A stretch of 64,000 nucleotides of DNA from Actinopolyspora lacussalsi subsp. righensis. GTDB taxonomy: Bacteria > Actinomycetota > Actinomycetes > Mycobacteriales > Pseudonocardiaceae. Made by a program: the position numbers and the translations under genes. Below are positions 13,224-59,283 of this stretch, in pieces; position 1 is the stretch's first letter; each line of letters begins with the position of its first letter. The DNA lies in the NCBI RefSeq assembly GCF_900116555.1, contig NZ_FPAT01000005.1, positions 310,001 through 374,000 of the forward strand. Direction: 5' to 3'. The notes under the pieces are model-generated. The model saw only the letters and a program-made list of their open reading frames with translations. It did not search any database and was not told where the DNA came from.

Positions 13224-13470
13224 CTCATGCTCCTAGAAATTGCGGGCTCCTCCGAACGCAGAGACCACAACGACCGCACGCAGCGTGGTCCGACGGGGCC
13301 GGTCATCGATCGAAGCCCAGGGGATGTTCGCTCCGACACCCCCTGTGGCCACTACCGAGGACCGGCGAAGGCACCTGCTTGGCAGCGGTGTGGACTCTGT
13401 GTTGGCAACCCTGTGTCGCTTGCCGGTTGTGATCCGGACGTCGCTCGTGGAGTTCCACTCCATACACCAA

Positions 13471-35394: not shown

Positions 35395-35568
35395 GTGTCC
35401 TGTTACCTCTTCCGCGGTGAGCGGAGCCCGCTGCCCGGCGCGGTTTCGAAATCCGGCGCGGTTTCGAAATCCAGCGCGGTTTCGAAGTCCGGGGTGGTCA
35501 CGGAGGACGTGCCTGCGGGAGCCGTTGCGGGCCGAGTGGCGACGTCCGAGGCACCGGGGTCGTCATGA
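35395..35568 (+). CDS. 57-residue repeat-bearing ORF coupled to cobL
   Basis: This short ORF starts at a GTG with AAGGAG about 9 nt upstream. It ends in TGA that overlaps the cobL ATG (ATGA), so translation of the two is probably coupled. The product (MSCYLFRGERSPLPG, then three A-V-S-K-S repeats and an Ala/Val/Glu tail) matches no family I know. The repeats come from three 18-bp DNA units. It could be a leader peptide that sets cobL translation, a small structural protein, or the remnant of a longer gene. Confidence 0.45.
   Translation: MSCYLFRGERSPLPGAVSKSGAVSKSSAVSKSGVVTEDVPAGAVAGRVATSEAPGSS
35437..35490 (+). repeat. Three 18-bp tandem repeats with TTCGAA
   Basis: Units at 35437-35454, 35455-35472 and 35473-35490 are GGCGCGGTTTCGAAATCC with two changes in the third copy. 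Each contains the palindrome TTCGAA, so the palindromes are spaced 18 bp apart. They lie inside the 57-residue ORF and keep its frame. Confidence 0.9.
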
Positions 35569-39020: not shown

Positions 39021-39770
39021 ATGAGTCCGCGTGTCCTCGTTCTGGGCGGCACCGGCGAGGGTAGGCGACTGGCCGAACAACTCGCTCACCTGGGATTTTC
39101 GGTGGTGTCCTCGCTCGCCGGCCGTGTCCGCGAGCCGAAACTGCCCGCCGGTGAGGTCCGGATCGGCGGGTTCGGCGGCCGGGAAGGACTGGCCGAATAC
39201 CTCCGCGGGGAACGGATCGGGATCGTGGTGGACGCCACCCATCCGTTCGCCGCGCGGATGACCGAGAACGCGGTCTCGGCCACGGAAACCACGGGAACCG
39301 AGCTGCTGGTGCTCCGGAGAAGGGCGTGGTCGCCGGGACCGGACGACGAGTGGCACCAAGTGGACTCGCTGGCCGAGGCCGCCGAGAAGGTCGGCGAACT
39401 CGGGCGGCGCGTGCTGTTGACCACCGGGCGCCAGGAGCTGGGGTGCTTCGCCGCCGCGCGGGACAACTGGTTCCTGGTACGCACCGTCGACGAGCCCGAA
39501 CAACCGCTGCCGCCGAACATGACCACGCTTTCCGCGAGAGGACCGTTCGACACCGCCTCCGAGTTGGAACTGCTCCGAGCACACCGGATAGAGGTAATCG
39601 TGAGCAAGAACAGCGGAGGCGACATGACCGAGGGGAAGCTGAGCGCCGCACGCGGGCTGGGGCTGCCCGTGGTGCTGGTGCGACAGCCGGACCTCCCGCC
39701 GGCACCCGTGGTGCACACCGTGGAGGAGGCACTCACCTGGTTCCGGGAACGCGGTTATCATGCCGGATAA
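39021..39770 (+). CDS. cobK: Precorrin-6A reductase CobK
   Basis: CobK reduces precorrin-6A to 6B with NADPH. The 249 residues carry LVLGGTGEGRRLAEQLAHLG at the N-terminus, the dinucleotide motif G-G-T-G-E-G-R-x-L-A of CobK/CbiJ, then VVDATHPFAARMTENAVSAT near 75-94 and IVSKNSGGDMTEGKLSAARG near 193-212. The ATG has GAGGTG upstream. Its last 13 nt overlap the 3' end of cobIJ on the opposite strand. Confidence 0.93.
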   Translation: MSPRVLVLGGTGEGRRLAEQLAHLGFSVVSSLAGRVREPKLPAGEVRIGGFGGREGLAEYLRGERIGIVVDATHPFAARMTENAVSATETTGTELLVLRRRAWSPGPDDEWHQVDSLAEAAEKVGELGRRVLLTTGRQELGCFAAARDNWFLVRTVDEPEQPLPPNMTTLSARGPFDTASELELLRAHRIEVIVSKNSGGDMTEGKLSAARGLGLPVVLVRQPDLPPAPVVHTVEEALTWFRERGYHAG

Positions 39771-41302
39771 CGGCGTGGCGTGAACACGGTCGTACCGTCC
39801 GAGCGCTCGACGACCCTGCTGGTGGAGGAGCCGACCAGCAACAGACAGCGCATGTCGACCTGTTCCGGATCCAGCTCGTCGAGCCGGACGATCCGAACGT
39901 CCTCCTCCGCACCTCCGATGTCCCTGCCGATCACCACCGGTGTGTCGGGAGCACGGTGCCGGAGCAGTGTGTCGCGGGCCGCACCGACCTGCCAACGCCT
40001 GCTCGCGGACGCCGGGTTGTAGACGGCCATCGCGAGATCGGCACTCGCGGCGGCCTCCAGCCGCTGTTCGATGACGCTCCACGGTTTGAGCCGATCGGAC
40101 AGCGAGAGCACGCAGTAGTCGTGGCCCAGCGGCGCCCCCGCTCTGCTGGCCACCGCCTGCGCCGCGGTGAGCCCGGGGAGTACGCGGACGTTCACGTGCT
40201 CGTAGGCAGGATCGGCGGCCGCCTCCAGCACGGCGCTCGCCATCGCGAAGACCCCTGGGTCGCCGGACGAGACCACGACGACCTCGCGCCCGGTGGCGGC
40301 GAGGTCCAGCGCTGCCGCGGCCCGCTCGGCTTCGACCCGGTTGTCCGAGGGGTGCTTGCGTTGGCGCGGATTGGTCGGAATCCGGTCGAGGTAGGGACCG
40401 TAGCCGACGAGATCGTCAGCGGCGCCGAGCGCCGCCTGTGCCTCGGGAGTCGTCCACTCCCGCCCCGCGGGGCCCAATCCGACCACGCTGAGGCCGCCCG
40501 AGCTCGAGCCGGTTTCGCTGCCGGTGTCCTCGTGGGCCGCGGTGGTGCCGGTGGTCTCCCCCACCGGGCTGGGCAGCAGTGCCAGCGAGAAGTAGGGCAC
40601 GCTTTCGGGATCGACGTCGCCGAGCTTCTCGACTCGTTGGCGGCGTGTGCTGGCGCGTTCCACGTAGTAGGCACTGTCGAGACAGCCGGCCTTGTCGAAG
40701 GCCTCCCGCACTCCCTCGAAGGTCCGCCCCAGTTTGAGCACGGCGGCGGCGTCGGTGTCCCGCAGTCGCTCGGCCAGGGCGTCCGGGTCCAGGGTGCCGG
40801 GCAGTACCGTTAGGACCTCGTCGCGTTCGGCGAGTGGTCGTCCCAGTTCGGCCGAAGCGGCGCTGACCGAATTGACGCCTGGCACGACCTCCGTGTCGAA
40901 CCGTCCCGAGAGCCGTTTGTGCATGTGCATGTAGGAGCCGTAGAAGAACGGATCGCCCTCCCCCAGCAGTGCGACGTCGCGACCCGCGGCGAGGTGAGTG
41001 GCCAGCCTGCCCGCGATCTCGGTGTAGAACTCGTCGATCGCGCCCTGGTACCCCCCGGGGTGATCGGTGGTCTCGGTGGTGACGGGATACACCAGGGGTT
41101 CCTCGATCTGGTCACCGCGCAGATAGGGCTCGGCGACCGAGCGGGCGATGCTGTTGCCGTGCCTGGCGCTGTGATAGGCGACCACGTCGGCCTCACCGAT
41201 CAGACGTGCCGCCTTGACCGTGACCAGTTCCGGATCACCGGGGCCGAGGCCCACTCCGAACAGTCGGCCGGGCAGGGGGGCGTTGCTGTGTTGGCTGCTC
41301 AC
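39758..41302 (-). CDS. cobIJ: Fused CobI-CobJ: precorrin-2 C20- and precorrin-3B C17-methyltransferase
   Basis: This 514-residue protein joins two class III methyltransferases. Residues about 1-245 are CobI ([40 protein letters not shown]). Residues about 270-514 are CobJ ([40 protein letters not shown]). The fusion is well known in actinobacteria and also in Mycobacterium. The GTG start overlaps the cobH stop (GTGA), so cobG-cobH-cobIJ form one coupled operon. The linker between the domains is short and Ser/Gly-rich. Confidence 0.95.
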
Positions 41303-41925
41303 TCTTCCTCGCTCGCGATCGCGTTGATGGCGGCGACCGTCATCGCACTACCGCCGCGCCTGCCGTGCACCACCAGGTACTCGGGACAGCCGGGGTGCTC
41401 CTCCAGCGCCTGTTTGGACTCGACCGCACCGATGAACCCGACCGGAATCCCCAGTACCGCCGCTGGTGTTCCCGCCCCCTCCTCGATCAGCTCCAGCAAT
41501 CGGAACAAGCAGGTGGGCGCGTTGCCGATCGCGACCACGGCTCCGTCGAGCCTGCCGCGCCACAGTTCCATGGCCGCCGCGCTGCGGGTGGTCTCCAGCT
41601 GACGGGCCAGTTCCGGGACCCGTGGGTCGGACAGGGTACACAGGATCTCGTTGGCGGCGGGCAACCTACGGCGCGTCACCCCCGCGGCCACCATTTCCGC
41701 GTCGCACAACACCGGAGCACCGGCAGCCAGCGCGTCGCGCGCGACACCGACCGCTCCGGGGGAGAAGGCGAGATCGTCGACAAGGTCGACCATGCCGCAG
41801 GCGTGGATCATGCGCACGGCCACACCGGCGACGTCCGACGGCAGCTCGTCGAGACCGGCTTCGGCGCGGATCGTCGCGAAGGAGCGCCGGTAGATCTCCT
41901 TGCCGTCCCGGATGTATTCGATCAC
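41299..41925 (-). CDS. cobH: Precorrin-8X methylmutase CobH
   Basis: CobH moves the C11 methyl to C12, giving hydrogenobyrinate. The 208 residues start [20 protein letters not shown] and contain the catalytic His near 41 in [39 protein letters not shown] near 73-91 and [18 protein letters not shown] near 132-149 are family blocks. Both ends overlap neighbours by 4 nt (GTGA): cobG before it and cobIJ after it. It is complete. Confidence 0.96.
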
Positions 41926-43313
41926 CGGTTGTCCTCGTCACCCGTTTCCTGCTGGTTGTCCTCGTGTCCGTTCCCGGGCTCGACGGTGCTCGCACCGACG
42001 TGCCGGGCACGCCGGACGGCCTCGGCCACCTCGTCCGTCCCCGCCTCCGTGGCCCAGGTGTCGGTCCCGGACTCCGTGGTGGAGCTGACCCGGTATCCGG
42101 AGGGGCTCGCCAGCACTTCCACCACCGGACCGCGCGGAAGCCCGCAGCGGCGCGAGCAACCGGCCCAGTGCACCGGCAGGACACCGGCATCGGTGCCTCC
42201 GGCGTCCGCCGCCTCGACATAGGCCAGACCACGCGCGGCGTCCCGGTGGACGTCTGCCAGGGACTTGGCACAGCCGGGTTCCCCCGCACAGGCGGTCGCG
42301 CCGTTGAACGGCGAGGCTGTTTCGACGATCAGACCACACGAGTGCAGCGCGGAGAGCCACGTCGAACACTCGTCTTCGGCGACGCCGGGTACGACCACCG
42401 TCCGCCAGGGCGTCAGTCGGACGGTACCCGACGCGGCTTCGGCCGTTCGTATGATGCAACGCAGCTGCGCCGGGGACAAGCGCCCCAGTGGTGCTCCCAC
42501 GCCCAGGGCTACCCGCCCCTCGGAGCGAGCCAGCTCACCCACAGTGGGTCTTTCCTGGGAATTCACCCGCTCGGTGAACGAGGTGGGGGGCCGCGATGTG
42601 ACATCGGCAACGGATCCCGACCATCGCTCCACACGAGCACGAAGCGCGTCGGTCAACTCATCCAGTGTGTCCAACTCGGCCACTCGCCACGCGGCGGCAC
42701 CGTGCCGTTCCCGCACGGCGAGGAACTCGCACGCGGCCATCACCGCGGCGGCGGGCGCCGAGTCGGGCGGGACCCGCACTCCCGAATCGGTTCCCGCCAG
42801 CAACAGGGCGACGTTGTCGGAGGACACCGGCAGCAGTCCCACGTCGGCACGCAGCCGCGCCAGATCACCGCTGCCGTCGTCGACGGTGAACAGGAACCTG
42901 CCGGACAGTTCGGCCAACGCGGGCTCGGCGCACAGCAGTGCGTCGAGTTCCGCGGCGAGCCAACGCACCGAGCGCAGTCGGCCGCGCCCGTCGAGTCCCG
43001 CGTAAGGGGCGGCGATGATGTTGCGCACCCGCTCGTGGGTCAACGAGGGCAGCAGACCGACTTCGGCCAGCAGCCGTCCCAGCTCTTCGGGGGCTTCGAC
43101 ACCGCGCAGCTGCAGGTTCGCACGCGAGGTCAGCTCGACCGTGGAGTTCCCCAGCTCCACGGCCGCCTTCGTCAGGGCGCGCAGCCCGCGGGTCTCCAGC
43201 CGACCACCGGGAACCCGGATCCGCGCCAGCCCACCGTCCGCGGCCTGATGAACCCGGAGCGCACCGGGGCAGGCATCGGCTCTGTCTCGGTCGACGCTGT
43301 AGTTCTCGGACAC
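41922..43313 (-). CDS. cobG: Precorrin-3B synthase CobG
   Basis: CobG is the oxygen-dependent enzyme that hydroxylates precorrin-3A and forms the lactone needed for ring contraction. The 463 residues have the ferredoxin-sulfite reductase half-domains and a 4Fe-4S Cys set in [12 protein letters not shown] and [14 protein letters not shown] near 338-395. [20 protein letters not shown] near 30-50 and [20 protein letters not shown] near 58-77 are siroheme-reductase-like segments. It starts with GTG at 43311-43313 and heads the operon cobG-cobH-cobIJ, divergent from the cobN riboswitch. The presence of CobG argues for an aerobic pathway. Confidence 0.93.
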
Positions 43314-43424
43314 TCCGGGGATGCTACGGGCCGCACCACTGTGCGCCGCGACACGATGGCGGCCTGGGGTGTGCCCGCGGCTTGACGAGGGATCCGCACG
43401 TTACCGAAACTGGAGCTCGTATCT

Positions 43425-43573
43425 GCGGTGGATCATGGAGGAAGCCGGTGCGAGTCCGGCGCGGTCCCGCCACTGTCACCGAGGAGCGAACTCCGTGGAC
43501 GGTCACTGTCTCGTGGAGATGGGAAGACCGGAGCGAGCGATGATCCGGGAGCCAGGAGACTCCGACCACCGCC
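43425..43573 (+). ncRNA. Cobalamin riboswitch upstream of cobN
   Basis: Recognisable adenosylcobalamin-riboswitch elements follow in order: the stem GCCGGTGCGAGTCCGGC (43444-43460), the core CCGCCACTGTCACC (43467-43480), and the B12 box GCCAGGAGAC (43551-43560). The closing stems also pair: GCGGT (43425-43429) with ACCGC (43568-43572), and GGATCAT (43430-43436) with ATGATCC (43540-43546). A small hairpin AGGGG/CCCCT (43584-43599) follows, and cobN starts about 119 nt downstream. High cobalamin should lower cobN expression. There is no gene in the rest of the 379-nt interval. Confidence 0.93.
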
Positions 43574-43692
43574 ACCACTGAAAAGGGGCGAGGACCCCTG
43601 GGAAGGTTACTGATGCGCCGTTCGAACGCGCGTGCATCGCGCGTCCTGTCCTGGTCGGTCCCCCCGGTTTTCGACGCCGAGGAGCCAATCGC

Positions 43693-47368: not shown

Positions 47369-48604
47369 TCAGCCCACCGGCAGGGCCCGATGTTCGGGGG
47401 CCAGCCCCGCCACCGGACCGACGACGATCACGGCGGGCGGCTTGACCTCGGAGTTCTCGACGTCGTCGGCCACTTCGCGCAGGGTGCTCCGCAGCGTCCG
47501 CTGCGTGTGCATGGTGCCTTCCTGTACCACCGCGACCGGCGTTTCGGGGCTCCTGCCGTGTTCGAGCAGCACGTCGGCGAACTCACGGATCCGTTTGACG
47601 GCCATCATCAGCACCAGCGTCCCGTTCAACCGGGCGAGGGCGGGCCAGTCCACCAGGGACTGCTCGTCGTTCGGCCCCACGTGCCCGGAGACCACGACCA
47701 CCTCGTGCGCCACCCCGCGGTGGGTCACCGGCACGTCTCCGATAGCCGGCGCCGCGAACGCACTGGTTATACCGGGTACCGCGGTCACCGCCACCCCTGC
47801 CTCGACGCAGGCCAGCAGTTCCTCGAAGCCCCGTCCGTAAACGTAGGGGTCGCCGCCCTTCAGCCGCACCACGAAGTTGCCCGCCGTGGCGCGTTCGATC
47901 AGCAGCTTGTTGATGACTTCCTGGTTCGCCGCGCGCCCGTAAGGGATCTTGGAGGCGTCTATCACCTCGACGTCGGGGGAGAGCTCCTCCAGCAGTTCAC
48001 GCGGCGCGAGCCGGTCGGTGATCACCACGTCGGCCCTCCCCAGCAGCTGACGGCCACGAACCGTGATCAGGTCGGGATCCCCCGGACCACCGCCGACCAG
48101 GGCGACGCCGGGTTCCGGTGGTTCGGCACGCTCTTCGACCTGTCCGGTACGCAGCGCCTCCAGCAGCGCCTCCTTGACCACGGCCGATCTCCGGTGATCC
48201 CCACCGGCCAACACTCCGAACAGCAGTCCGTCGTGTTCCGCGACGGCGGGGGTGACCGCGGTGCCTCCGCTCGCGTCGTCCGCGCGCACGCAGAACACCC
48301 GGTCGCGCTCCGCCTCGGCGACGACCCGCTCGTTGACCTCGGCGCTGGAGGTGCAGGCCACCGCGTACCAGGCCCCGTCCAGATCTCCCTCGGTGTACCG
48401 CCTGCGGTGCCACACCAGCTCTCCGGCTTCGGCCATGGCATCAACGGCGGGAGTGGCCTCCGGCGATATCACCACGACACTTGCCCCGGCCTTGAGCAGC
48501 CTGGGGACGCGGCGCTGTGCCACGGTTCCGGCTCCGACGACCACCACCCGCCTGTCCTGCAGATCGAGTCCGGCGAAGTAGTGGTGCTGGCTGTGCGAGG
48601 TCAT
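47369..48604 (-). CDS. cysG: Siroheme synthase-type uroporphyrinogen-III C-methyltransferase
   Basis: This 411-residue protein feeds the corrin pathway. The N-terminal part has an NAD-binding precorrin-2 dehydrogenase domain (DRRVVVVGAGTVAQRRVPRL near 17-36). Residues about 165-410 are the SAM-dependent uroporphyrinogen methyltransferase: ALVGGGPGDPDLITVRGRQL, FVVRLKGGDPYVYGRGFEEL and VAVTAVPGITSAFAAPAIGD. It thus makes precorrin-2 for cobalamin and can start siroheme synthesis. It starts with ATG, and its 3' end faces cobN across the palindrome. Confidence 0.94.
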   Translation of the reverse strand: MTSHSQHHYFAGLDLQDRRVVVVGAGTVAQRRVPRLLKAGASVVVISPEATPAVDAMAEAGELVWHRRRYTEGDLDGAWYAVACTSSAEVNERVVAEAERDRVFCVRADDASGGTAVTPAVAEHDGLLFGVLAGGDHRRSAVVKEALLEALRTGQVEERAEPPEPGVALVGGGPGDPDLITVRGRQLLGRADVVITDRLAPRELLEELSPDVEVIDASKIPYGRAANQEVINKLLIERATAGNFVVRLKGGDPYVYGRGFEELLACVEAGVAVTAVPGITSAFAAPAIGDVPVTHRGVAHEVVVVSGHVGPNDEQSLVDWPALARLNGTLVLMMAVKRIREFADVLLEHGRSPETPVAVVQEGTMHTQRTLRSTLREVADDVENSEVKPPAVIVVGPVAGLAPEHRALPVG

Positions 48605-48998: not shown

Positions 48999-50099
48999 TC
49001 ACCGACCGAGGACGGTGCGCAACGCACCGAGCAGCATCTCCACCCGGTCCAGCCGCGCGTTGTTGCCCATCAGGCCGATACGCCAGACGCTGTTGGCGAA
49101 CGGTCCGGCACCGGCACCGATCTCGATGCCGTAGTCGGTCAGCAGTTGCTTGCGCACGTCCGCCGAGTCCACCCCTTCGGGCACCCACACGCTCGTCAAC
49201 TGGTGCAGCCTGTTGCCCTCCGGAGCGAACAGCTCGAGCCCCATCCGCCGCAGACCCTCCTGCAGCGCCTCGCCCGCCGCACGGTGGCGCTCGGCGACCG
49301 CGGGCATCCCCTCGTCGAGCACCCGGCCGAGCGCGGCGTGCAGCGAGGCGACCATCGCGGTGGGCGCGGTGTGGTGGTAGGCGCGTCCGCCGGAGGCTCC
49401 TCCGGTCACGTAGTTCCCGATGAGCCCGAGGTCCAGGTACCAGGTGGTGGGGTTCTCGACCCTGCGCTGCCAGGCGCGCTCGGAAACCGTGAACGGCGCG
49501 AGCCCCGGGGGGACCCCTAGGCATTTCTGCGTACCGGCGTAGGCGATGTCGACGTTCCAGGCGTCGAGGTCGATCTGTTCACCGGCGATCGAGGTCACGC
49601 AGTCCGCCAACAGCAGGGTGTTGCCGCCACGGGAACGCAACGCCTCGCCGAGGCGACCGATATCGCTGCGCACACCGGTGGAGGTCTCGGCGTGCACGGC
49701 TGCCACCAGCGCCGGGGAGGGATGGGCCTCCAGCACGCGCTGGACGTCCACTGGCTCTCCCCATTCGTGGTCGACACGCACGACCTCCGCTCCGTAACGG
49801 CTCGCGACATCGCACATGCGTTCGCCGAACAGACCGTTGACGGCCACTACGACCACGTCACCAGGGCGCACGAAGTTGACGAAGGCGGCTTCCATGCCGA
49901 TGGAGCCGGTACCGGAAAGCGGAAGCGTCCGAAGGTTTCGGGTCCCCCAGACCGACCGCAGCCGTTCCCCGGTGTCGTCGAGCAGCTTCAGGAAGTCCGG
50001 GTCCAGGTGGCCGAGCAGCGGAGCCGCCAGGGCCGCGGTGGCCTCCGGATAGGTGTTCGACGGCCCGGGGCCGAGTAGAGAGCGTTCAACCAGTGCCAT
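48999..50099 (-). CDS. Alanine--glyoxylate/serine-type aminotransferase (class V)
   Basis: This 366-residue class V PLP enzyme starts MALVERSLLGPGPSNTYPEA, with the family's L-x-G-P-G-P-S-N/T start. The PLP Lys is in VDIAYAGTQKCLGVPPGLAP near 190-210, preceded by LLLADCVTSIAGEQIDLDAW near 169-188. This is the alanine-glyoxylate/serine-pyruvate aminotransferase group. The ATG is at 50097-50099; a longer frame runs into the AT-rich upstream region and is not coding. It lies inside the cobalamin cluster, but a role in that pathway is not evident. The upstream 494 bp hold its likely promoter. Confidence 0.85.
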   Translation of the reverse strand: MALVERSLLGPGPSNTYPEATAALAAPLLGHLDPDFLKLLDDTGERLRSVWGTRNLRTLPLSGTGSIGMEAAFVNFVRPGDVVVVAVNGLFGERMCDVASRYGAEVVRVDHEWGEPVDVQRVLEAHPSPALVAAVHAETSTGVRSDIGRLGEALRSRGGNTLLLADCVTSIAGEQIDLDAWNVDIAYAGTQKCLGVPPGLAPFTVSERAWQRRVENPTTWYLDLGLIGNYVTGGASGGRAYHHTAPTAMVASLHAALGRVLDEGMPAVAERHRAAGEALQEGLRRMGLELFAPEGNRLHQLTSVWVPEGVDSADVRKQLLTDYGIEIGAGAGPFANSVWRIGLMGNNARLDRVEMLLGALRTVLGR

Positions 50100-50593
50100 G
50101 ACGCCCAGCCTAGGCATACCGTCCCAGCGCAGCGGGCCGTACCCACTTGACGCGGATCTGACCTGGGCACGCCGGATTCCATGCAACGGAAACAAGATTC
50201 CACGAGCGTGCTCACACGAACTGTTGACAATGTCACATCCTCGAGAAATCCACGGAAACCGCGGCGCGACACTCCGGAGAAACCGGAAGCGCGGCGCTGA
50301 GCGGCGAAAACACGGCCGGGAAAAGAAAACACCACCGCACACCCCCAGTGGTGCGGTGGTGGGCGTGGTCGGTTCACCCGTAAGGCTGTTGGCAACCACG
50401 CAAGCCGAAGTTTTCTCGCATATAGCTTGCAGTACTGTAATGTAGCTTCACTCGATACAGTCAAGATCTATCGATAAATCGGCCTAATAGTCGGCAAATC
50501 ACTCACTTTGCGTAGCCGATTTGGCGCGGCTGTGACACGCGGTGCGTCGAACGGGGAGCACGGTGACCGCCCCTGGCCCGCTGCACGCGAGGA
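50100..50593. other. Intergenic region with AT-rich control segment
   Basis: There is no gene in these 494 bases. Bases 50410-50520 are strikingly AT-rich for this genome. They contain the inverted repeat ACTGTA/TACAGT (about 50435-50461) and TTGACT, read on the minus strand. An arm AAATCGGC (50476-50483) pairs with GCCGATTT (50515-50522) and may end the upstream cobE operon. The segment probably holds the aminotransferase promoter and an operator; I cannot fix the -10. Confidence 0.4.
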
Positions 50594-51079
50594 TCAACGC
50601 AACCAGCGGAGCACCCTGCCGGGAACGACCGGTCGCAGCGCCCTCGGAGATCCAGTGGGGTTGGCCGCCGCGAGCGTGACACCGGCGGTGACGAACTTGG
50701 ACAGCACCATCCGAGCCGTGCCGTCCCCGATCTCGGCGGCGGCACGCAGACATGCCGCTTCCGCGACGCTGGGGGTGCCGACCCGTTCCCCGACGGAATC
50801 GCTCGGATTGGGGACGATCGTCCCGGCGAGCGCTTCGGCCGAGTAGCACAGTAGCGGCAGCTCCCCCTCGGCCGCGAGCGACCAGTGCCGCGAGTGTCGC
50901 CGCAGCCCGGCACGCAGCGGTCCCGATTCCGCCGCACGATCGATCGTGGCCACCGCCCGAACGACGACGGAACCACCGGGAAAACACTCGTCCAGCCCGG
51001 ACAGTGCTTCCGTCACGGCGGCAGCGGTCACACCGCTGGAAGCACCGATACCGATCACCAGAGCTCCGGGGACACTCAC
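50594..51079 (-). CDS. CobE/CbiG C-terminal domain protein
   Basis: This 161-residue protein matches the CobE/CbiG_C fold. It starts VPGALVIGIGASSGVTAAAV and contains VGTPSVAEAACLRAAAEIGD near 103-122, the conserved V-G-x-P-S-V-A-E-A-A segment. CobE is a small accessory protein of the aerobic pathway that may bind hydrogenobyrinic acid. The N-terminal lactone-opening part of CbiG is missing, which is normal for CobE. The start overlaps the stop of cobL copy 2 (51076-51079), so it is the last gene of the cobM2-cobL2-cobE operon. The C-terminus carries about 25 extra residues. Confidence 0.8.
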   Translation of the reverse strand: MSVPGALVIGIGASSGVTAAAVTEALSGLDECFPGGSVVVRAVATIDRAAESGPLRAGLRRHSRHWSLAAEGELPLLCYSAEALAGTIVPNPSDSVGERVGTPSVAEAACLRAAAEIGDGTARMVLSKFVTAGVTLAAANPTGSPRALRPVVPGRVLRWLR

Positions 51080-52284
51080 ACGGCGTCCCCGTTGGGAAGC
51101 TCGGCGGACAGCAGCACCACCGGCTCACCCGCCGCCAATCCCGAAACGTCCTCCTCCGAAGTGACCATCCGGTTGGCGAAGAGCTGTACTCCCTCGACGT
51201 GGTAACCGGCGTTGCGCAGCACATCCCTGTTCGCCGCGATCCGGTCCAACGTGTGCGAGGCGAGTACGACCCGACGCGCCCCCGCATGAGCGCAGGCGGT
51301 GAGCACTTCCGCGTCGTCGATCCCGACGAAAACCGAATCCGGCTTGGCGAGCCCACGCAACACCGCCGGCGCGGCACCCTCCTCGACGCGGACGTCCACC
51401 CCGTGAGCGGCAGCGTTGGAGACCAGCCTCACGACCTGGGCCTCATCGGACTCCACCGCGACGCAGGCCGCACCCATCCTGGCGCACTCCACCGCCACCG
51501 AACCCGAGCCGGCCCCCACGTCCCACACCAGGCTGCCGGGCCGGGGAGCCAGTCGCGCCAGCGCGAGCGCACGAACCTCGCTGGTGGTGACCGTCCCCTC
51601 CCGATGGGAGAACTCGTCCTCCGGAAGGGCCCACCGCTCCGGAGGCGTGGGCTCACCCCCGCTGTGCCAGCTACGTCCGGGAACGGCGTCCGGATCGTCC
51701 ACGCAGCAGACGATGTTGGGTTCGAACCAGTTGCGCTCCGCCGCCTCGTCCGGATCGATCGTGGTTACACGCTCGTGCTCGCCCCCGAGATCCTCACCGA
51801 CGATCATCGTGCGACGCCAACCACGCAACCCGGAGGCCAGTTGTGCCGGCCCGGTGTCACCACCGGTCAGCACCACCACGGTCGAACGCGCGCGGCAGAT
51901 GTTGAGCGCACGGTGCAGTCCCCCGATGCGCGCGCTGACCACGCTGGCGTCCTCCCAGGAACGTCCCATGCCCGCGAGCAGTCGTTGCACGCTGGACAAC
52001 GCGGGCAACACCGTGCACCGCACTCCCTTGTCGCGCAGTGCGCGAACGGCACCGAAGAAACCGGGGTCACCCGAGGCGAGCACCACACCGGTTTCCTCGG
52101 CGGTCAACGCGGAAAGCGCGCTCAACGCGGGCCCGAACGAACCGAGCTCGACCGTTCGCACCCCCTCCGGTGCGTGCACCCGCAAGTGCGGGGGAGCTCC
52201 CACGATCAGTTCCGCGGAGTTCAGCACCTCGGCCGCCCCCTCGGGCAACGGTCCACCGTCGATTCCGATAACCGTGACCGCCAC
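51076..52284 (-). CDS. cobL: CobL-like precorrin methyltransferase, copy 2 (diverged)
   Basis: This 402-residue second CobL has a CbiE-type domain (about 1-215; VTVIGIDGGPLPEGAAEVLN, GVVLASGDPGFFGAVRALRD) and a CbiT-type domain with the SAM motif SLVWDVGAGSGSVAVECARM near 255-274. The N-terminal G-I-D-G-G-P-L replaces the usual G-x-D-G-W, while the SAM site is intact. The start is the GTG at 52282-52284, with GGAG 8 nt upstream. It lies 51 nt after the second cobM gene and overlaps cobE. It may be redundant, may serve a different methylation, or may partner CobM2; sequence alone does not tell. Confidence 0.85.
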   Translation of the reverse strand: MAVTVIGIDGGPLPEGAAEVLNSAELIVGAPPHLRVHAPEGVRTVELGSFGPALSALSALTAEETGVVLASGDPGFFGAVRALRDKGVRCTVLPALSSVQRLLAGMGRSWEDASVVSARIGGLHRALNICRARSTVVVLTGGDTGPAQLASGLRGWRRTMIVGEDLGGEHERVTTIDPDEAAERNWFEPNIVCCVDDPDAVPGRSWHSGGEPTPPERWALPEDEFSHREGTVTTSEVRALALARLAPRPGSLVWDVGAGSGSVAVECARMGAACVAVESDEAQVVRLVSNAAAHGVDVRVEEGAAPAVLRGLAKPDSVFVGIDDAEVLTACAHAGARRVVLASHTLDRIAANRDVLRNAGYHVEGVQLFANRMVTSEEDVSGLAAGEPVVLLSAELPNGDAV

Positions 52285-52335
52285 GTCGCACACTCCGTCC
52301 GACTAGAGGTTGAGTTGGTCTCTCGCTGTGACTTC

Positions 52336-53976
52336 CTACTCGGTGGCGCGCCGCTTCCCGGAACCGGTACTCGACGAACCGCCCCTGTTCCCGTTCGTCG
52401 TGCTCTTCTGCTGCGACCTGGTTCTGGTGCCGCTCTTCGCCGTGTTCGACCTGCCACCGCCGGACTTGGTCGCCGAACTCTTGGAACCGGACTTCGCCGA
52501 GGTACCGGACCGTGAGTCGTTCTTGGCGGTTTTCGGGTTCGAGACGTCGACGGCCTCCGCCGCGCTCGACTCCTCGGCTTGTTCGCCCTTTTCGGCGCTG
52601 GACCGTTCCCGCGGATCCTCCTCGGACGCGACCGGTTCCTCGGCCGTTTCCCGTTCGGTACCGCTGGAGGAACCGTACGGTGCGGACTCCGCGTCGTCAC
52701 GCCCACTCCCCTCGGGACCGGTCGCTCCGCGCTCCGCCGCCCCGGAGACCGCGTCGTCAACGGTGTGCGCTGGTTCGAGGCCCTCCCCTTGGGCGGGGTC
52801 GACGGAACCATCCGTCGCCGCCACGGCGTCCTCCCCCGTTCCGGACTCGACAGCACCCTGTTCGGTGGCCACGTCCCCCTCGGGGACCGTGAACCCCTCG
52901 GTGGACTGCTGCTCGGTCACGACCGAGTGCCGAACTCCACCGCGACCACCGGTCCGAACGGCGTCCCTGGTGTTCTGCTGCCAATCACGCACCGCCCACC
53001 AGGCGACGTCGGCGTCGGCACGCGCACCATCGCGTTGTTCGTCCGAACGGGGCTGCGGAAGCGGTCCGTCCGCACCGCCCTCGGCGTCACCCGAAGCACC
53101 GCGAGTTCCCGAACTCCGCTCCGTGCCCCGCCGCCCGGTGGAGTACCGAGAGCCGGAACCACCACGCCGTCCCGAAGTCGATTCCCCATAGCGACCGGTC
53201 CGCACCGCCTGCTCCCGCGTCCGCGCGGCGGAGTAGGACCGCGAACGGGTGACCTGCGACCGCAGCGCCTCGCCGACCAGGAAGAGCGTGTTCCGCCAGA
53301 GCCTGTGCTTCTTGACGACTCCCTCGAGCTCGCCGACGCTGCTGCGCAGCACCAACTCGTCGGAACACGTGACCTTGTAGGCGACCACGACCGGAACGTC
53401 GTCGTCGTAGCCCGCCGCGCGCAACCGCTCCACGAGTTGACCGGTGCGTGACGCGGAGACCGACAGCGCCATGGTCACGCCGTTCTCGGCGAACTCCCGC
53501 GCTTTCGCCGCGTCCGGAAGCGTATTGGATCGACCGTCCGGCCTGGCCACCATGAGGGGATACTCGTGTTCCGCACCGGTGAGTTCCCTGCCGACCGCGG
53601 CGGCCGCGGCGGTGTGGCCGGCAACTCCCGGAACCATCTCCACTTCCAGCTCCATGCGCGCGCAGGTGTCGTACTGCTGCTGCAGCGAACTCCAGACCAC
53701 GGCGTCGCCGGAGTGCAGTCGCACCACTCGCAGGCGTTCCCGCTCCGCCCTGCGGTAGATCTCCTGAACCTCGCGCTGGTCGACCGCGGTGATGTCGAGC
53801 AGCTCCACATCGGCACGTGCGTGTTCCCGCACACCCTCGGGAGAGATCGTGCTCGGACTGCAGAGAACGATGTCCGCCTCGGAGATCCGACGCGCGGCGC
53901 GCAGTGTCATCAGATCGGCCGCACCGGGGCCCGCCCCCACGAAAGAGACCAGCCCGGTACGAGTTCCCGAAGTCAT
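52336..53976 (-). CDS. cobM: CobM-like precorrin methyltransferase, copy 2, with long disordered tail
   Basis: This 546-residue protein begins at the ATG at 53974-53976 (AGGAG upstream). Residues 1-250 are a class III methyltransferase: VSFVGAGPGAADLMTLRAAR, RVVRLHSGDAVVWSSLQQQY and VEMVPGVAGHTAAAAAVGRE. The usual CobM motifs Y-A-G-S-L-V and L-T-R-x-A are replaced, so it is clearly diverged from copy 1. Residues about 250-546 are low complexity, first Arg/Gly/Ser, then Glu/Ser/Thr/Ala acidic, and finally Lys/Ser/Gly/Arg basic, without any fold I know. The reading frame is continuous with no sign of a frameshift. It heads the operon with cobL2 and cobE. Confidence 0.85.
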   Translation of the reverse strand: MTSGTRTGLVSFVGAGPGAADLMTLRAARRISEADIVLCSPSTISPEGVREHARADVELLDITAVDQREVQEIYRRAERERLRVVRLHSGDAVVWSSLQQQYDTCARMELEVEMVPGVAGHTAAAAAVGRELTGAEHEYPLMVARPDGRSNTLPDAAKAREFAENGVTMALSVSASRTGQLVERLRAAGYDDDVPVVVAYKVTCSDELVLRSSVGELEGVVKKHRLWRNTLFLVGEALRSQVTRSRSYSAARTREQAVRTGRYGESTSGRRGGSGSRYSTGRRGTERSSGTRGASGDAEGGADGPLPQPRSDEQRDGARADADVAWWAVRDWQQNTRDAVRTGGRGGVRHSVVTEQQSTEGFTVPEGDVATEQGAVESGTGEDAVAATDGSVDPAQGEGLEPAHTVDDAVSGAAERGATGPEGSGRDDAESAPYGSSSGTERETAEEPVASEEDPRERSSAEKGEQAEESSAAEAVDVSNPKTAKNDSRSGTSAKSGSKSSATKSGGGRSNTAKSGTRTRSQQKSTTNGNRGGSSSTGSGKRRATE

Positions 53977-54473
53977 GCGATCGTTCTCCTCTCCCGCCTC
54001 ACGCGGTGCAAGTAATACCACTGCGGACAATCGATACGCGCCGCACCCGGTACGGCCGTTCTCCCGCGTCGAGGCGGTCGAATCACCGGTGCACCGACGG
54101 AGGTCTCCGACTCGTCCCGCGGTCGCCCGTGGCGCAGACGAGCGGCACTCGGTTATGAAAACACCGCGCATCGATCGTCGACGCGACAGTGAAAAGCCAC
54201 GACGCGTACTGATCGACCGTATCGCGACACCGCCGACGACACCGAGTGCACCGTTCCGGCCGCACACGGCACACGAACGGGAACAATCGTTCCAGAGTGG
54301 ATCAAGCACGTCGGCCCTGCCCGGCCGACCCGACCGGGTAGGGGAAGGAACTCGAAGTAGATCCGCCGGGGTTTCCCCGTCACTTATTCACTCGAACGAC
54401 AACCGCGGAGCGGAGAATCACGCCCGATCGGCGACCGTGGTGTCGTTCGGGACCGGTTTCACCGAGCGTGCCG
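53977..54473. other. Intergenic region upstream of the second cobM
   Basis: No gene is seen in these 497 bases. On the minus strand 54099-54113 reads GAGTCGGAGACCTCC, close to a B12 box but one base short; the preceding GCCAC is present, but the other conserved stem (GCCGG/CCGGC) is not, so I do not call a riboswitch. The promoter of the cobM2 operon must lie here. cobB ends at 54474 on the same strand. Confidence 0.4.
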
Positions 54474-55874
54474 TCAGCGGGAGCACTCCCGCACGAACCG
54501 CGCGATCGCCCCGGGTATCGCGACCGGGTGGGTGTGGAGGTAGGAAGCGTGCAGCCTGTCGCGCACGAACCCCTCGGTAACCACACCGTCGTCGCGCCAG
54601 AACCAAGCCGGGTTTTCCCCGGCCTTCCGGGTGAGCACGGTGCGGTGGAACTCGTGCCCGGAGACCCGGCTGCCCTCGTGGAACAGCACCGAGTCACTCG
54701 CCGCCACCGCCTCCCGGTAGCCGAGCGTGAGCCGAGGGGACATCCGCGCGTCGACGTCCAACACCCCGCACAGCGGATATCCGTCCAGACTCCGCGCCAG
54801 GTACAGCAGGCCCGCGCATTCGGCGTGCACCGGCAGGCCGTCGGCGACACGGCTCGCGATGTCGTGACGCAGCCCCTCGTTCGCGGACAGGTCCGCGACG
54901 TACTGCTCCGGGAACCCACCGGGCAGAATCAATCCGCTGGTGCCCGCTGGCAATCGCTCGTCCCGCAGCGGATCGACCACGGTGACCTCCGCACCCGCGG
55001 CTCGCAGCAGTTCGACGTGTTCGGTGTAGCCGAAGGTGAACGCCGATCCACCCGCCACCGCCACCCGAGGCGACCCCGCCGTCAGCTCGCTGTCACCGAT
55101 CGCGGTTTCGGGGCGCCACGGCTCGACGGACATTCCGGAAGCCGAAGCGGCGAGTGCGGCCACCGCGTCGAGATCGACACCCGAGGCGACGATCCGCGCC
55201 ATGCCGGCGACGGCGTCATCGGCCCGCTCGCCGTGCTCGGCTGCGGTGACGAGGCCGAGGTGGCGCGAGGGCACGTGCAGCTCGTCGGCACGGGCGAGAA
55301 CACCGAGCACGTTGATCCCCACGGAGCGCGCGGCCTCCCGCAGAATCCCCTCGTGCCGAGCCGAACCGACCCTGTTGAAGATCACACCTCCCAGCCGCAG
55401 TCCCGGTTGGAAAGCACGAAAACCGTGCAACAACGCGGCCACGCTCTGACTCTGCCCCTTGGCGTCCACCACGAGCACCACCGGAGCGTCCAGCAAGGAG
55501 GCGACGTGAGCCGTCGAACCGTAGGGCGGCACTTCGTCCACGGAACCGAGCCTGCCGTCGAACAGCCCCATGACACCTTCGACGACGGAGAGGTCCGCCC
55601 CCTCGGCACCGTGGGCGAACAACGGGGCGACACGACTCTCCCCGACCAGGACGGGGTCGAGATTACGACCCGGTGCACCGGTGGCCACGGCGTGATACCC
55701 GGGGTCGATGTAGTCGGGCCCCACCTTGAAGCCCGCCACCTTTCCGAGTCGCTCACGCAGCGCCGCGAGCAGTCCGGTCGCGACGGTGGTCTTGCCGTGT
55801 CCGGAGCCCGGAGCCGCGACCACGACGCGCGGGCGAGCGGCGCCGGTCACCGTGGCCGAAACCGACCGGCTCAC
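54474..55874 (-). CDS. cobB: Cobyrinate/hydrogenobyrinate a,c-diamide synthase CobB
   Basis: CobB amidates the a and c side chains with glutamine and ATP. The 466 residues start VVSRSVSATVTGAARPRVVV. A P-loop follows in VAAPGSGHGKTTVATGLLAA near 18-37 and a class I-like glutaminase domain in LPVHAECAGLLYLARSLDGY near 347-366, with the catalytic Cys. The GTG start overlaps the cobO stop by 4 nt (GTGA), so it is coupled to cobO. Amidation before metal insertion fits the late-cobalt route with CobN. Confidence 0.95.
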   Translation of the reverse strand: MSRSVSATVTGAARPRVVVAAPGSGHGKTTVATGLLAALRERLGKVAGFKVGPDYIDPGYHAVATGAPGRNLDPVLVGESRVAPLFAHGAEGADLSVVEGVMGLFDGRLGSVDEVPPYGSTAHVASLLDAPVVLVVDAKGQSQSVAALLHGFRAFQPGLRLGGVIFNRVGSARHEGILREAARSVGINVLGVLARADELHVPSRHLGLVTAAEHGERADDAVAGMARIVASGVDLDAVAALAASASGMSVEPWRPETAIGDSELTAGSPRVAVAGGSAFTFGYTEHVELLRAAGAEVTVVDPLRDERLPAGTSGLILPGGFPEQYVADLSANEGLRHDIASRVADGLPVHAECAGLLYLARSLDGYPLCGVLDVDARMSPRLTLGYREAVAASDSVLFHEGSRVSGHEFHRTVLTRKAGENPAWFWRDDGVVTEGFVRDRLHASYLHTHPVAIPGAIARFVRECSR

Positions 55875-56485
55875 CACTCGATCCCCTTCTGCCCCTTCTG
55901 GCCAGCATCCATCGGGTGTTTGAGCTTGCCGGTCTCCAGTGCCAGATCGGCGGCGTCGAGCAACTGCTGCGGAGCACGCCTGCCGGTGATCACCACGTGC
56001 TGGAATCCCGGGCGCTGCCGCAGGGTTTCCACCACTTCCGCCACGTCGACCCATCCCCAGTGCAGCGGGTAGGTGAACTCGTCGAGCACGTAGAGGTCGT
56101 GCCTGCTCTGCTCGATCCGGCGGGCGATCTCGTGCCACCCCTCCAACGCGGCCTCGGCGTGATCCTGCTCCGTGGAGCGTTTGCGGGTCCAGGACCACCC
56201 CTCACCCATCTTGTGCCACTCGACCGGACCGCCCTCGCCGGTCTCCTCGTGCAACCTGCCGAGCGCCCGGAAGGCCGACTCCTCGCCCACCCGCCACTTG
56301 GCCGACTTGACGAACTGGAAAACCCCGATGGACCAGCCCTGGTTCCAGCCGCGCAACGCCATTCCGAACGCGGAGGTGGACTTGCCCTTCATGTCACCGG
56401 TGTGCACCGCGAGCAAGGGACGGTTGCGACGCTGCCTGGTGGTCAACCCGTCGTTCGGTACGGAGTTCGGTTGTCCCTGTGGCAT
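55871..56485 (-). CDS. cobO: Corrinoid adenosyltransferase CobO
   Basis: CobO transfers the adenosyl group from ATP to the reduced corrinoid. The 204 residues begin MPQGQPNSVPNDGLTTRQRR. The P-loop VHTGDMKGKSTSAFGMALRG spans about 27-46, and RHDLYVLDEFTYPLHWGWVD near 128-147 is the Walker B region of the CobA/CobO family. KLKHPMDAGQKGQKGIEW closes the chain. The ATG is at 56483-56485. It lies 345 nt after chlI-chlD on the same strand and overlaps cobB. Confidence 0.95.
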   Translation of the reverse strand: MPQGQPNSVPNDGLTTRQRRNRPLLAVHTGDMKGKSTSAFGMALRGWNQGWSIGVFQFVKSAKWRVGEESAFRALGRLHEETGEGGPVEWHKMGEGWSWTRKRSTEQDHAEAALEGWHEIARRIEQSRHDLYVLDEFTYPLHWGWVDVAEVVETLRQRPGFQHVVITGRRAPQQLLDAADLALETGKLKHPMDAGQKGQKGIEW

Positions 56486-56643
56486 AGCAGGATCTCCAAG
56501 CGAGTACGGTCGTTCGCTTCCACGACCCGAGCGAGGGGCGTGGACAGCGGGAGGGTGTGAAGTGGGTATCACGGTCGCGTGCGGAGGGTTCGGGGCGGCC
56601 GAACCACGAGCGGACACCGGTCTCGTCATCGGATGGCGGGTAA

Positions 56644-56676
56644 CGCGCCTCGTCCACGAACCGCGCCTCGTCCACG
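56644..56676. repeat. 15-bp direct repeats in the cobO leader
   Basis: CGCGCCTCGTCCACG occurs at 56644-56658 and 56662-56676 with an 18-bp period. Downstream in reading direction lies cobO; the region is otherwise non-coding. Confidence 0.85.
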
Positions 56677-56689
56677 GACAGCGAGAGAA

Positions 56690-56765
56690 CGCCCTCGCAC
56701 TCAACCGGCCTGGGGGTGCCGGGAGCGCGAGGGCGCTTTGGTCCACCCCTGGGGGTCAGGTGGAC
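56690..56765 (-). terminator. Two hairpins after chlI-chlD
   Basis: The arms CGCCCTCGC (56690-56698) and GCGAGGGCG (56727-56735) form one stem, and GTCCACC (56741-56747) and GGTGGAC (56759-56765) another. They lie 65 nt or more past the stop at 56831 and before cobO, so they may end the chelatase transcript or attenuate cobO. A TACAAT element (56773-56778, minus strand) could be a promoter for cobO. Confidence 0.5.
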
Positions 56766-56830: not shown

Positions 56831-59035
56831 TCACGCGAGCACCGCACCGGCTTCCCGTGCGGCGCGCACGACTCCGGCGACGTTGTCCGCGGAGAGTTCC
56901 TCCAACCGCAGGTTGGGCGCTCCGAGCACGTGCGCCAGTCGATCGGCCATGCCGAGACGCACCGGCCCGTTCTCGCAGTCCACCACCACGGAGGCCACGC
57001 CCATCTCGTTGAGCAACGCGGCCGAACGCATCGCGTCGTCCACGGCGCGACGGCTACGCGTGGCGGCGTTGCCCGCGGCGTCGACGCCCACAGTGGCCTT
57101 ACCGTCGGTGAGCACGACCAGCAGGGGGCGACGCTGCGGATCACGCATCCGCTCGGTACGGATCACCTTGCGAGCCGTGAGCAGCCCACCCGCCAACGGC
57201 GTCTTGCCGCCGGTCGGCAGCCTGCGCATGCGAGTGGCAGCGGTGTCCACCGACGAGGTCGGTGGCAGCGCGATCTCGCCGTCCGCCCCCCGGAAGGTCA
57301 CCACTCCCACCTTGTCCCTGCGTTGGTAGGCGTCGCGAAGCAGTGCGATGACCGCACCGCTGACGGCGGACATCCGCTCCCTGGCAGCCATCGACCCCGA
57401 GGCGTCCACGGCGAAGAGCACCAGATTGCCCTCGCGTCCTTCGCGTACGGAGTGGCGCAGATCGGTGGCGTGCAGCCGCAGGCCGGGTCCGGAACGTCCC
57501 CGGGAACGCTGGTGTGGCGCCGCGGCGGCCAACGTGGCGGGCAGGTGAACACCGTGACCGTCCACCGCGGACGAGCGCACGACCTGGCCGGTACGGGAAC
57601 GCGACCGCGAACGCCGTCCCGGCGCGCCTTCGCCGAGGCCGGGAATCTCCAGCAACCGAGCCCGGAACGTGGTGTCCGACGCCTCGGAAGTCCGCTCTCG
57701 TGGGGCTTCACCGGAGCCGTCGGAACCGTTCCCGTCCGAACCGTTGGCAGTGTTACCGGCGGCATCCTCGTCGGAAGGCGGCCTCCCCTCGGCCCCTCCC
57801 GAGGGGGTGTTGTCGGGTCCCTCGGGACCGTCCGGAGCGCCGGTGCCGCCACCCCCGGAACCGTCCTCGTCGTCGGGGCCGTCACCGGGGCCTTCGTCAG
57901 GGCCGCCATCGGGGCCGTGCTCGGAATCGTTCGGCTCGGAAGCACCGTCCGAATCGGACGTGACCGAGTCCGCCGAGGCCTCCTGCCGCTCGGCGTCCTG
58001 TTCGGCATCGTCCAGGGCCTGTCGCAACTGCTGCTCGTCCATCCCCGGCTCGTCGAACGGATCGCGCCGTCGGCGGTGCGGCAGCGCCAGCCTCGCCGCG
58101 GCTTCCACATCCGCCGCGGCGACAGCGTTCACTCCCCGCCAGGCCGCGTGCGCGACCGCGGCACGCGCCAGCACCAGATCGGCGCGCATACCGTCCACCT
58201 CGAACGAGGCACACACCGACGCGATCCGGCGAACCTCGGAGTCCGGCAGCTGGACGGAGTCGACCCGGGAGCGGGCATCGGCGATGCGTCGCGCGAGCTC
58301 GGCGTCCTCCTCCGCCCATTCCTTCGCGAACCCGACTGGATCGGCCTCGAAGTGCAGTCGACGACGTACCACCTCGGTACGCGTGTCCACCTCGCGCGAG
58401 GCGGCCACCTGCACGGTCAGCCCGAAGCGATCCAACAGCTGGGGACGCAGCTCACCCTCTTCCGGGTTCATGGTGCCGACCAGCAGGAACGACGCCGCGT
58501 GCGACAGCGAGACCCCCTCACGCTCGACGTGGGAGCGGCCCATGGCGGCGGCATCGAGCAACAGGTCGACGAGGTGATCGTGCAGCAGGTTGACCTCGTC
58601 GACGTAGAGCACCCCGCGGTTGGCCGCGGCGAGCAGCCCGGGCTGGTAGGCGCGGACTCCCTCGGTCAACGCGCGTTCGACGTCCAACGATCCGACCAGG
58701 CGGTCCTCGGAAGCCCCCACCGGGAGTTCCACGAGCCGGGCGGGACGACGAGCACCGGCCGTCGCCTCGTCGTGCGGCCCGTCGGGGCAGTCCGTGTCCG
58801 GCTCGGCGGGATCACAACCGAAGCGGCAGTTCTCGACGACGTCGAGAGCGGGCAACAGGGCAGCGAGCGCACGCACGATGGTCGACTTCGCGGTGCCCTT
58901 CTCGCCCCGCACCAGCACCCCGCCGATACGCGGGTACACCGCGTTGAGCAGCAACCCCAGTCGCAGATCGTCGTGCCCGACAACCGCGGAGAACGGGTAG
59001 CGCACGGTGGACTGTGCCGATGTGGCAGCGGTCAT
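56831..59035 (-). CDS. Fused ChlI-ChlD (BchI/BchD) cobalt chelatase partner
   Basis: This 734-residue protein joins an AAA+ domain and a von Willebrand factor A domain. The Walker A site GEKGTAKST is at about 44-52 and Walker [11 protein letters not shown] near 140; the MIDAS motif DASGSMAA is near 541. Between them lies an acidic Gly/Asp/Ser/Glu-rich linker (about 350-450). Such fusions replace CobS and CobT as the ATP-driven partner of CobN in actinobacteria. The ATG at 59033-59035 lies 48 nt after a cobalamin riboswitch, which should tie its expression to B12 as for cobN. The pairing with CobN is inferred from cluster and shared control. Confidence 0.88.
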
Positions 59036-59083
59036 CGCTGGTATTCCTTCCTAGGGTCTCGGACGCCCCTGGTTGCGGAACGC

Positions 59084-59227
59084 AGCAACGGCAGTGTCCT
59101 GACTCCCGGATCGACGCGCTTCTCCGGCCTTCCCGGGTGATTCCCGGTGGCCATTCGTTGGAGAACCGCTCCCCGGTCACAGTGGCGCCGGCCGTGCCGG
59201 ATTCACACCGGCTTCCTGACCGTTGCT
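59084..59227 (-). ncRNA. Cobalamin riboswitch upstream of chlI-chlD
   Basis: On the minus strand the same elements occur in order: stem GCCGGTGTGAATCCGGC (59196-59212), core GCGCCACTGTGACC (59175-59188), and B12 box GTCAGGACAC (59094-59103, a slight variant). The closing stem pairs AGCAACGG (59220-59227 in plus coordinates CCGTTGCT) with CCGTTGCT (59084-59091, plus AGCAACGG). The chelatase start lies only 48 nt beyond, so it probably blocks the ribosome site. Confidence 0.92.
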
Positions 59228-59283
59228 CGCTTGGACCACGTCGCATCCTCGCAGAAGCCCGTTCGGGCACCAAACGTCGTGCC

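Follow-up and report, generated by a model that had tools for sequence, protein, structure and literature searches.

An eroded, tail-bearing CobM persists in the remnant of an older cobalamin operon in the Pseudonocardiaceae

Why does a genome with a canonical CobL and CobM keep a second, diverged version of each? The question is posed by a 64,000-nucleotide stretch of Actinopolyspora lacussalsi subsp. righensis (the window), in which a CobM2–CobL2–CobE run lies exactly at 50594–53976, besides the CobL1 and CobM1 genes at 35.6–37.5 kb, as an earlier note on this DNA had reported (Table 1). CobL1 and CobM1 belong to a CobG-type corrin cluster that also comprises CbiD, CobK, CobIJ, CobH, CobG, CobN and CobA. 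By gene order and, for CobM, phylogeny, CobM2–CobL2–CobE is a remnant of the original cobalamin operon of the family Pseudonocardiaceae, and not a duplication of CobM1 and CobL1. We consider it fairly probable that CobM2 and CobL2 of this operon remnant have lost corrin methylation and been retained as S-adenosylmethionine (SAM)-binding, tail-docking proteins with another role; the loss of activity, the docking and the docked partner are read from sequence patterns. The families themselves, tetrapyrrole (TP) methylase, CobL and CobE, are already known. We found no account of an eroded, selected, tail-bearing CobM in the open-library literature; papers outside that library may exist.

CobM2 consists of a TP-methylase domain (residues 1 to ~245) followed by a low-complexity tail of ~300 residues in the window. 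It belongs to the TP-methylase superfamily by PF00590 (125.7 bits, cut-off 27.8) and scores 192.8 bits against TIGR01465, below the equivalog cut-off of 259.65, whereas the open frame with CobM1 scores 291.4, above it. The nearest solved relatives, both by sequence and by fold search, are 4e16, 1cbf/2cbf and 3ndc/3nei. Top Foldseek matches of the CobM2 model are CobM/CbiF (E 3.7e-20), with overlays at a root-mean-square deviation of ~14 and a target template modelling (TM) score <0.5; the full-length AlphaFold2 model is poor (mean predicted local distance difference test score 57.9, predicted TM score 0.39). CobM2 shares with CobM/CbiF, the precorrin-4/cobalt-precorrin-4 C11-methyltransferase, its domain and its SAM-anchor residues, but differs in the sub-cut-off score, in 11 of 41 canonical positions and in the long, motif-bearing tail. 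The YAGSLV and LLTR motifs of CobM1 are replaced by SPSTI and MVAR in CobM2, and GIGADGW of CobL1 by GIDGGP in CobL2; the SAM-binding segments GAGPGAADL (CobM2) and WD-x-GAGSGS (CobL2) are retained. Both the motif losses and the kept segments had been noted earlier and are borne out here.

Relatives of CobM2, CobL2 and CobE in Streptomyces, Micromonospora and other actinobacteria stand in a run CbiL, CobM, (CbiD), CobL, CobE, CobJ, CbiC that adjoins CobN, ChlID and CobO. Part of the Pseudonocardiaceae has this older run, with CbiL and CbiD in loci L043, L092 and L121–L128 and with CbiL in L119 and L120. Another 45 family loci are trimmed: CbiD is found in 0/45, CbiL in 2/45, CobL2 in 39/45, CobE in 35/45 and CobJ2 in 30/45, and in the window genus (L021–L023) CobJ2 has likewise gone from the locus. 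Compared with the Streptomyces/Micromonospora-type operon, the window set has its gene order and, for CobM, its ancestry, but CbiL, CbiD, CobJ and CbiC of that operon are absent from it; the sole CbiD, CobIJ and CobH of the window are those of the other cluster. Most fetched loci span ~20 kb (L155 is 11 kb and L042 a 6.6-kb contig), and in some genomes, G127 among them, CbiC is located outside the stretch that was fetched, so we claim no CbiC loss from its presence in 2/45 trimmed loci and in 6 of the 15 family loci with an unchanged CobM2 (see below). CobB labels in the locus gene-order tables are unreliable because the reference was out of frame, the real CobB being the unnamed family that adjoins CobO; other labels are unaffected.

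Maximum-likelihood analysis of 107 CobM sequences places CobM2 in a clade of family sequences (ultrafast bootstrap 92), which is nested among Streptomyces/Micromonospora-type CobM, far away from CobM1. The tree was built for CobM, and the placement of CobL rests on gene order. Together, tree placement and gene order indicate that the two CobM proteins come from two pathways and are not recent duplicates. The duplication that the earlier note had taken to be visible is therefore unsupported for CobM, and so is a simple redundant duplication, for which that note had expected both copies to group in one recent clade with every active-site residue intact: for CobM, there is no such clade and not all active-site residues are conserved. 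Named loci near CobM2 among the matches listed include Saccharopolyspora, Saccharothrix, Umezawaea, Lentzea and Pseudonocardia, many with the same gene order, in a genome-contig scan restricted to records not near the window's own genome. A third type of CobM, accompanied by a CobJ/CobA/CobH-like cluster of its own, occurs in some family genomes (L034, L035 and L158); in G014 this third type lies beside an eroded CobM2, and a CobH match in that genome (C30) is split in two.

We scored erosion at 41 canonical positions conserved at ≥94% in 77 CobM/CbiF rows, from Clostridia to Streptomyces (L081, L087 and L093, gapped through a 300-residue cut or a wrong start, were kept among the 77). No canonical position is changed in 15 family rows, and 2–18 of the 41 are changed in 46 trimmed rows, the window having 11. 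CbiL was found in 12 of the 15 unchanged loci and CbiD in 10; L041, L042 and L132 count as unchanged although their loci showed no CbiL, and the third CobM type is excluded from the comparison of 46 with 15 rows. The split coincides with the state of the rest of the pathway. In 11/11 genomes tested, an unchanged CobM2 is the sole CobM among the matches listed and CobH is present, and the 40 genomes with an eroded CobM2 comprise 36 with a further CobM among the matches listed and 4 without CobH (Fisher P = 2e-11, which overstates the evidence because the genomes are related). This single-CobM/CobH criterion uses no motif, yet yields the same division into unchanged and eroded proteins.

Unchanged and eroded CobM2 interleave in the tree. 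The eroded L137 lies inside the L092/L121/L124–L126 clade, eroded L133–L136 and L138 stand beside unchanged L122/L123, an eroded group of L024/L025/L030/L140–L142 stands beside unchanged L127/L128 (inner nodes weak, 46–51), and a large eroded clade that includes the window stands beside unchanged L119 (88). This branching suggests at least three independent switches to an eroded CobM2, and probably four.

The erosion is selective. Thirteen SAM-anchor and structural positions (G14, G16, P17, G18, D21, L22, T24, R26, R86, D91, G117, L185 and G235) are retained in 46/46 trimmed rows. Others drift, with the canonical residue retained in 21 (A40), 8 (L43), 18 (P135), 15 (T151), 26 (W204), 11 (S245) and 3 (L247) of the 46. 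Because they lie outside the SAM segments, the drifting positions would line the substrate pocket. Ordinary redundancy, with CobM2 as an active CobM that merely has variant motifs, is hard to square with this pattern and strikes us as highly improbable: the changed positions are invariant in 15/15 unchanged family rows and nearly so in the 77 canonical rows, even though the nearest solved relatives are CobM/CbiF and L136 and L137 have only 2/41 changes.

CobM2 might instead have become a new methyltransferase that uses SAM on another substrate, such as a tetrapyrrole, RNA, a protein or perhaps its own tail. TP-methylase relatives with other substrates include RsmI, diphthine synthase and the borosins, and the constancy of the SAM-anchor positions while other canonical positions drift is what such an enzyme would show. 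However, the drifting positions take lineage-specific residues with no new common pattern, and the SAM contacts are not uniformly kept. Of the five contacts reported for R. capsulatus CobM (sources consulted: PMC6478909, PMC7242693 and PMC3672029), two map to the retained CobM2 residues P17 and D91, and contacts 120 and 173 vary. We regard a new methyltransferase as unlikely.

We measured the ratio of non-synonymous to synonymous substitution (dN/dS) by the Nei–Gojobori method in nine pairs within the window genus. For the CobM2 domain it is 0.10–0.26 in 8/9 of these pairs; it is 0.14–0.18 in three further pairs from g42 and 0.05–0.16 in the CobH-less genus g58. CobL2 (0.06–0.22), CobM1 (0.07–0.19) and CobL1 (0.10–0.26) give similar ranges, and differences in CobM2 and CobL2 fall at third codon positions far more often than one third of the time in all five comparisons tested. 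By these measures purifying selection still acts on CobM2 and CobL2, which are not decaying. It is thus very unlikely that these genes are a dying relic, functionless leftovers heading for deletion. Such a relic would account for the near or complete disappearance of CbiL and CbiD from the trimmed loci, the loss of CobJ2 from 15/45, the fast evolution of CobE (dN/dS 0.35–0.49 in 8/9 pairs, with 1.26 for the remaining, closest one) and of the CobM2 tail (0.30–0.60), and the many relatives with a CobM1-type match only. But constraint on the CobM2 domain and CobL2 is similar to that on CobM1 and CobL1, the frames are open, the 13 positions above never change, and CobM2 is found in more than half of the genera surveyed.

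The tail carries a motif of its own. A strict form, AW-x-x-V-x-x-WQ-x-x-x-R, is present in the window and in 39 of the 54 family rows that have a tail (31 from eroded and 8 from unchanged proteins), and in 0/10800 shuffled tails; 5/54 tailed rows have a looser form and 10/54 have none, with L044 and L128 of the ten missing it by one residue. Conservation over 28 rows is 0.75 for the motif columns, 0.74 for the domain and 0.25 for the remaining tail, the motif figure being an upper value since these rows were picked after the motif was known. AlphaFold2 predicts a single helix (residues 316–340) in an otherwise unstructured tail, at low confidence (helix block means ~44–52). A docking motif common to other genes was rejected on the basis of one DNA form of it: this form occurs once per genome in 11/16 genomes, always directly behind the CobM2 domain, and a backward-read control gave 1 match in the 16 genomes (G014). 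Unchanged CobM2 proteins (in g42 and g51) already have the motif, which indicates that the tail predates erosion; there is no tail in five of the unchanged family members.

Borosin-type TP methylases combine a methylase-fold domain with a long C-terminal substrate tail, whose core peptide is N-methylated by the enzyme. By that description CobM2 resembles them in having a methylase-fold domain and a long C-terminal tail, but it groups with CobM, and its tail is low-complexity and mostly unconserved.

We surveyed 200 family genomes from 44 genera (G115 enters the dN/dS and presence tests and is absent from the motif table). Four counts (97, 110 and ~76 of the 200 genomes, and 26/44 genera) were made by hand among the matches listed; the 97 were screened for repeats, and 12 g60 genomes within the 110 rest on two loci. 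Thirteen of the 200 genomes have no CobH/CbiC match. An eroded or low-scoring CobM2 is nonetheless retained in five of these 13 (G047, G053, G065, G094 and G115); among the matches listed, the remaining eight show none for CobM at E 1e-40. The five have no CbiD or CbiG_C match and no CobM above cut-off, and with CobH, CbiD and CbiG_C matches all absent they would make no corrin ring. CobM2 persists in 26/44 genera by the hand count, three of them without CobH.

CobM2, CobL2 and CobE could also be helpers that bind intermediates or the chelatase and so assist the CobG-type enzymes. Such a role would fit their place in the window, next to cobB, cobO and chlID with a cobalamin riboswitch upstream, and the small number of changes at CobE sites across most trimmed lineages. 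This proposal has difficulty explaining why an eroded CobM2 is retained in 5/13 CobH-less genomes. In addition, no Rfam match reached the gathering score in seven loci with a lone or nearly lone CobM2, four of them from CobH-less genomes; a cobalamin riboswitch was thus not detected in the vicinity of these genes. We therefore judge a helper role improbable.

CobL2 is altered in the same genomes as CobM2. Like CobL, a CbiE–CbiT fusion, it has the same domain order, a CbiE match above cut-off (110.7 bits against 92.9) and the WD-x-GxGxGS SAM segment, but its CbiT match is below cut-off (62.5 bits against 78.3) and 10/62 canonical positions are changed (R35P, R108G, G123I, R124G, V194I, K237T, V304E, A320S, G325I and G326D). 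K237 is retained in 5/40 trimmed rows, as compared with 15/15 unchanged rows and 5/5 divergent rows from outside the family; R124 is retained in 10/40 trimmed rows and G325 in 21/40. The SAM glycines 262 and 264 are retained in 39/40 and G260 in 29/40. Saccharothrix/Lentzea-type CobL2 apparently keeps the CbiT part without much of CbiE, or has a wrong start in the gene calls (L029, L039, L049, L065, L068, L149, L150 and L156).

CobE may differ from CobM2 and CobL2 and still serve cobalamin synthesis, since it is absent from the five CobH-less genomes that retain CobM2 and changes at few sites in most relatives: 0–5/29 conserved sites in most trimmed rows, with 7 in L024 and 6 in L030. A requirement of the CobG-type pathway for CobE is a weakened candidate. 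There is no CbiG_C match in G052, G161, G198, G016 and G023, of which the first three have a CobM above cut-off and CobH, and the last two a CobM match (among the matches listed) and CobH. CobJ2, which lies behind CobE, has 30–41/119 differences from Streptomyces-type CobJ in five older trimmed lineages (L026, L027, L139, L143 and L144). The window's own CobE and CobJ are outside the rows of these CobE and CobJ site comparisons.

Taken together, these results suggest how an operon remnant with another role might have arisen. The sequences themselves show the origin of CobM2, its repeated erosion, the selection on it, its tail motif and its persistence without CobH. The tail would have been gained at a time when the cell had no CobM other than CobM2. 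A separate CobG-type cluster would then have taken over corrin synthesis from the CbiL–CobM–CbiD–CobL–CobE–CobJ–CbiC operon, and CobM2 and CobL2 have lost canonical residues mostly outside the SAM anchor, keeping the fold and the SAM-anchor residues. CobM2 would no longer methylate precorrin-4 and would probably still bind SAM, and the purifying selection on CobM2 and CobL2 would serve some function that is neither C11 nor C5/C15 methylation, with CobL2 retained alongside CobM2 in most, not all, genomes. The conserved, possibly helical motif of the tail would dock a partner outside corrin synthesis. Another job is probable because residues of the presumed pocket have been lost and selection is nonetheless maintained, with CobM2 present even in CobH-less relatives. 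More specifically, and more tentatively, CobM2 may have had a second, B12-independent function exerted through a disordered tail with a conserved docking helix, such that catalysis was lost repeatedly after the B12 takeover and the protein was kept, even in bacteria that have ceased to make the corrin ring; we see this as possible, though short of an even prospect. Of the roles that the earlier note had proposed, a scaffold-like, non-corrin version comes closest to the data, given eroded pocket residues in genes under purifying selection, although that function is a reading of sequence. Replacement of a missing CobF step is unsupported because CbiD already fills that step, and no evidence was seen for a branch to another tetrapyrrole.

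Several observations weigh against another role for CobM2 and CobL2. About 76/200 family genomes have, by the hand count, a CobM1-type match only, so CobM2 is dispensable. In the window, a cobalamin riboswitch still precedes these genes together with cobB and cobO, consistent with some continuing part in B12 supply, and none of the neighbours of lone CobM2 (aminotransferase, cytochrome P450, PIG-L and DEAD helicase) is persuasive as a partner. SAM binding by eroded CobM2 is not assured, because three of the five reported contacts (120, 173 and 202) show variation among eroded rows, as 202 does among unchanged rows too. The strict motif is missing from 15/54 tailed rows, including lineages that retain CobM2, and in the closest genus pair (13 differences) the dN/dS of CobM2 is 0.81. 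Divergent CobL from outside the family also differ at 8–24/62 positions, so only specific CobL2 losses such as K237 count. CobE in the window genus changes 3–9/29 conserved sites. The CobJ2 count is no proof of erosion, because a functional-looking CobJ1 differs equally (41–44/119) from the same reference, which is Streptomyces-type only.

The family offers a natural experiment with replicates, in which the pathway was replaced in several lineages, and in every case the old CobM was retained despite losing likely pocket residues. This makes it possible to test directly whether a B12 enzyme has a hidden second function. For annotation, two CobM/CobL labels in a genome should not be counted as a redundant or branched B12 pathway, and naming by family would label CobM2 a precorrin-4 methyltransferase even where no CobH is found.

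Table 1 Cobalamin-related and adjoining features of the window
Feature	Position	Strand	Evidence or remark
CobL1, canonical	35565-36809	+	1/62 canonical positions differs
CobM1, canonical	36806-37549	+	0/41 canonical positions changed
CbiD, C1 methyltransferase filling CobF step	37682-38797	-	TIGR00312 411 bits, cut-off 200
CobIJ fusion, CobH, CobG of CobG-type cluster	39758-43313	-	
Second cobalamin riboswitch, upstream of CobN	43404-43577	+	Rfam match
CobA with siroheme-synthase-like N-terminal part	47369-48604	-	
Class V aminotransferase, adjoins CobE	48999-50399	-	
CobE (CbiG C-terminal domain)	50594-51079	-	PF01890 CbiG_C 61.7 bits, cut-off 27
CobL2 (CbiE and CbiT domains)	51076-52293	-	CbiE and CbiT model matches
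CobM2 (TP-methylase, CobM/CbiF-like domain and low-complexity tail)	52336-53976	-	TIGR01465, PF00590
CobM2 tail motif AWWAVRDWQQNTR (residues 325-337)	52966-53004	-	within predicted lone helix 316-340, low confidence
DNA core of tail motif	52978-53001		genome position C15:362978-363001
CobB, cobyrinate a,c-diamide synthase	54474-55877	-	start not settled
CobO, adenosyltransferase	55871-56746	-	open frame; gene call start 56407
ChlID-type cobaltochelatase subunit	56831-59035	-	profile match
Cobalamin riboswitch, upstream of ChlID-CobO-CobB-CobM2-CobL2-CobE run	59072-59240	-	83.6 bits, gathering 31.5

CobE, CobL2 and CobM2 are co-directional, with one 4-base overlap and one 42-base gap, and the spacing from CobB to CobM2 is 497 bases with the start used here. 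The run from ChlID to CobE would form a single transcript. A promoter scan of 50300–54700 found no sigma-70-like site, and terminator-like sites numbered 4 against 2.7 expected.

The best NCBIfam matches of the aminotransferase next to CobE are BhcA and pyridoxamine-pyruvate transaminase, both far below cut-off; its gene is also close to the operon in L024, L127 and L128. In L129, L130, L131, L145 and L157, where CobM2 stands alone, CobA is the closest cob gene still present. Elsewhere in the window, an Actino-pnp RNA motif lies at 13298–13366 on the minus strand.

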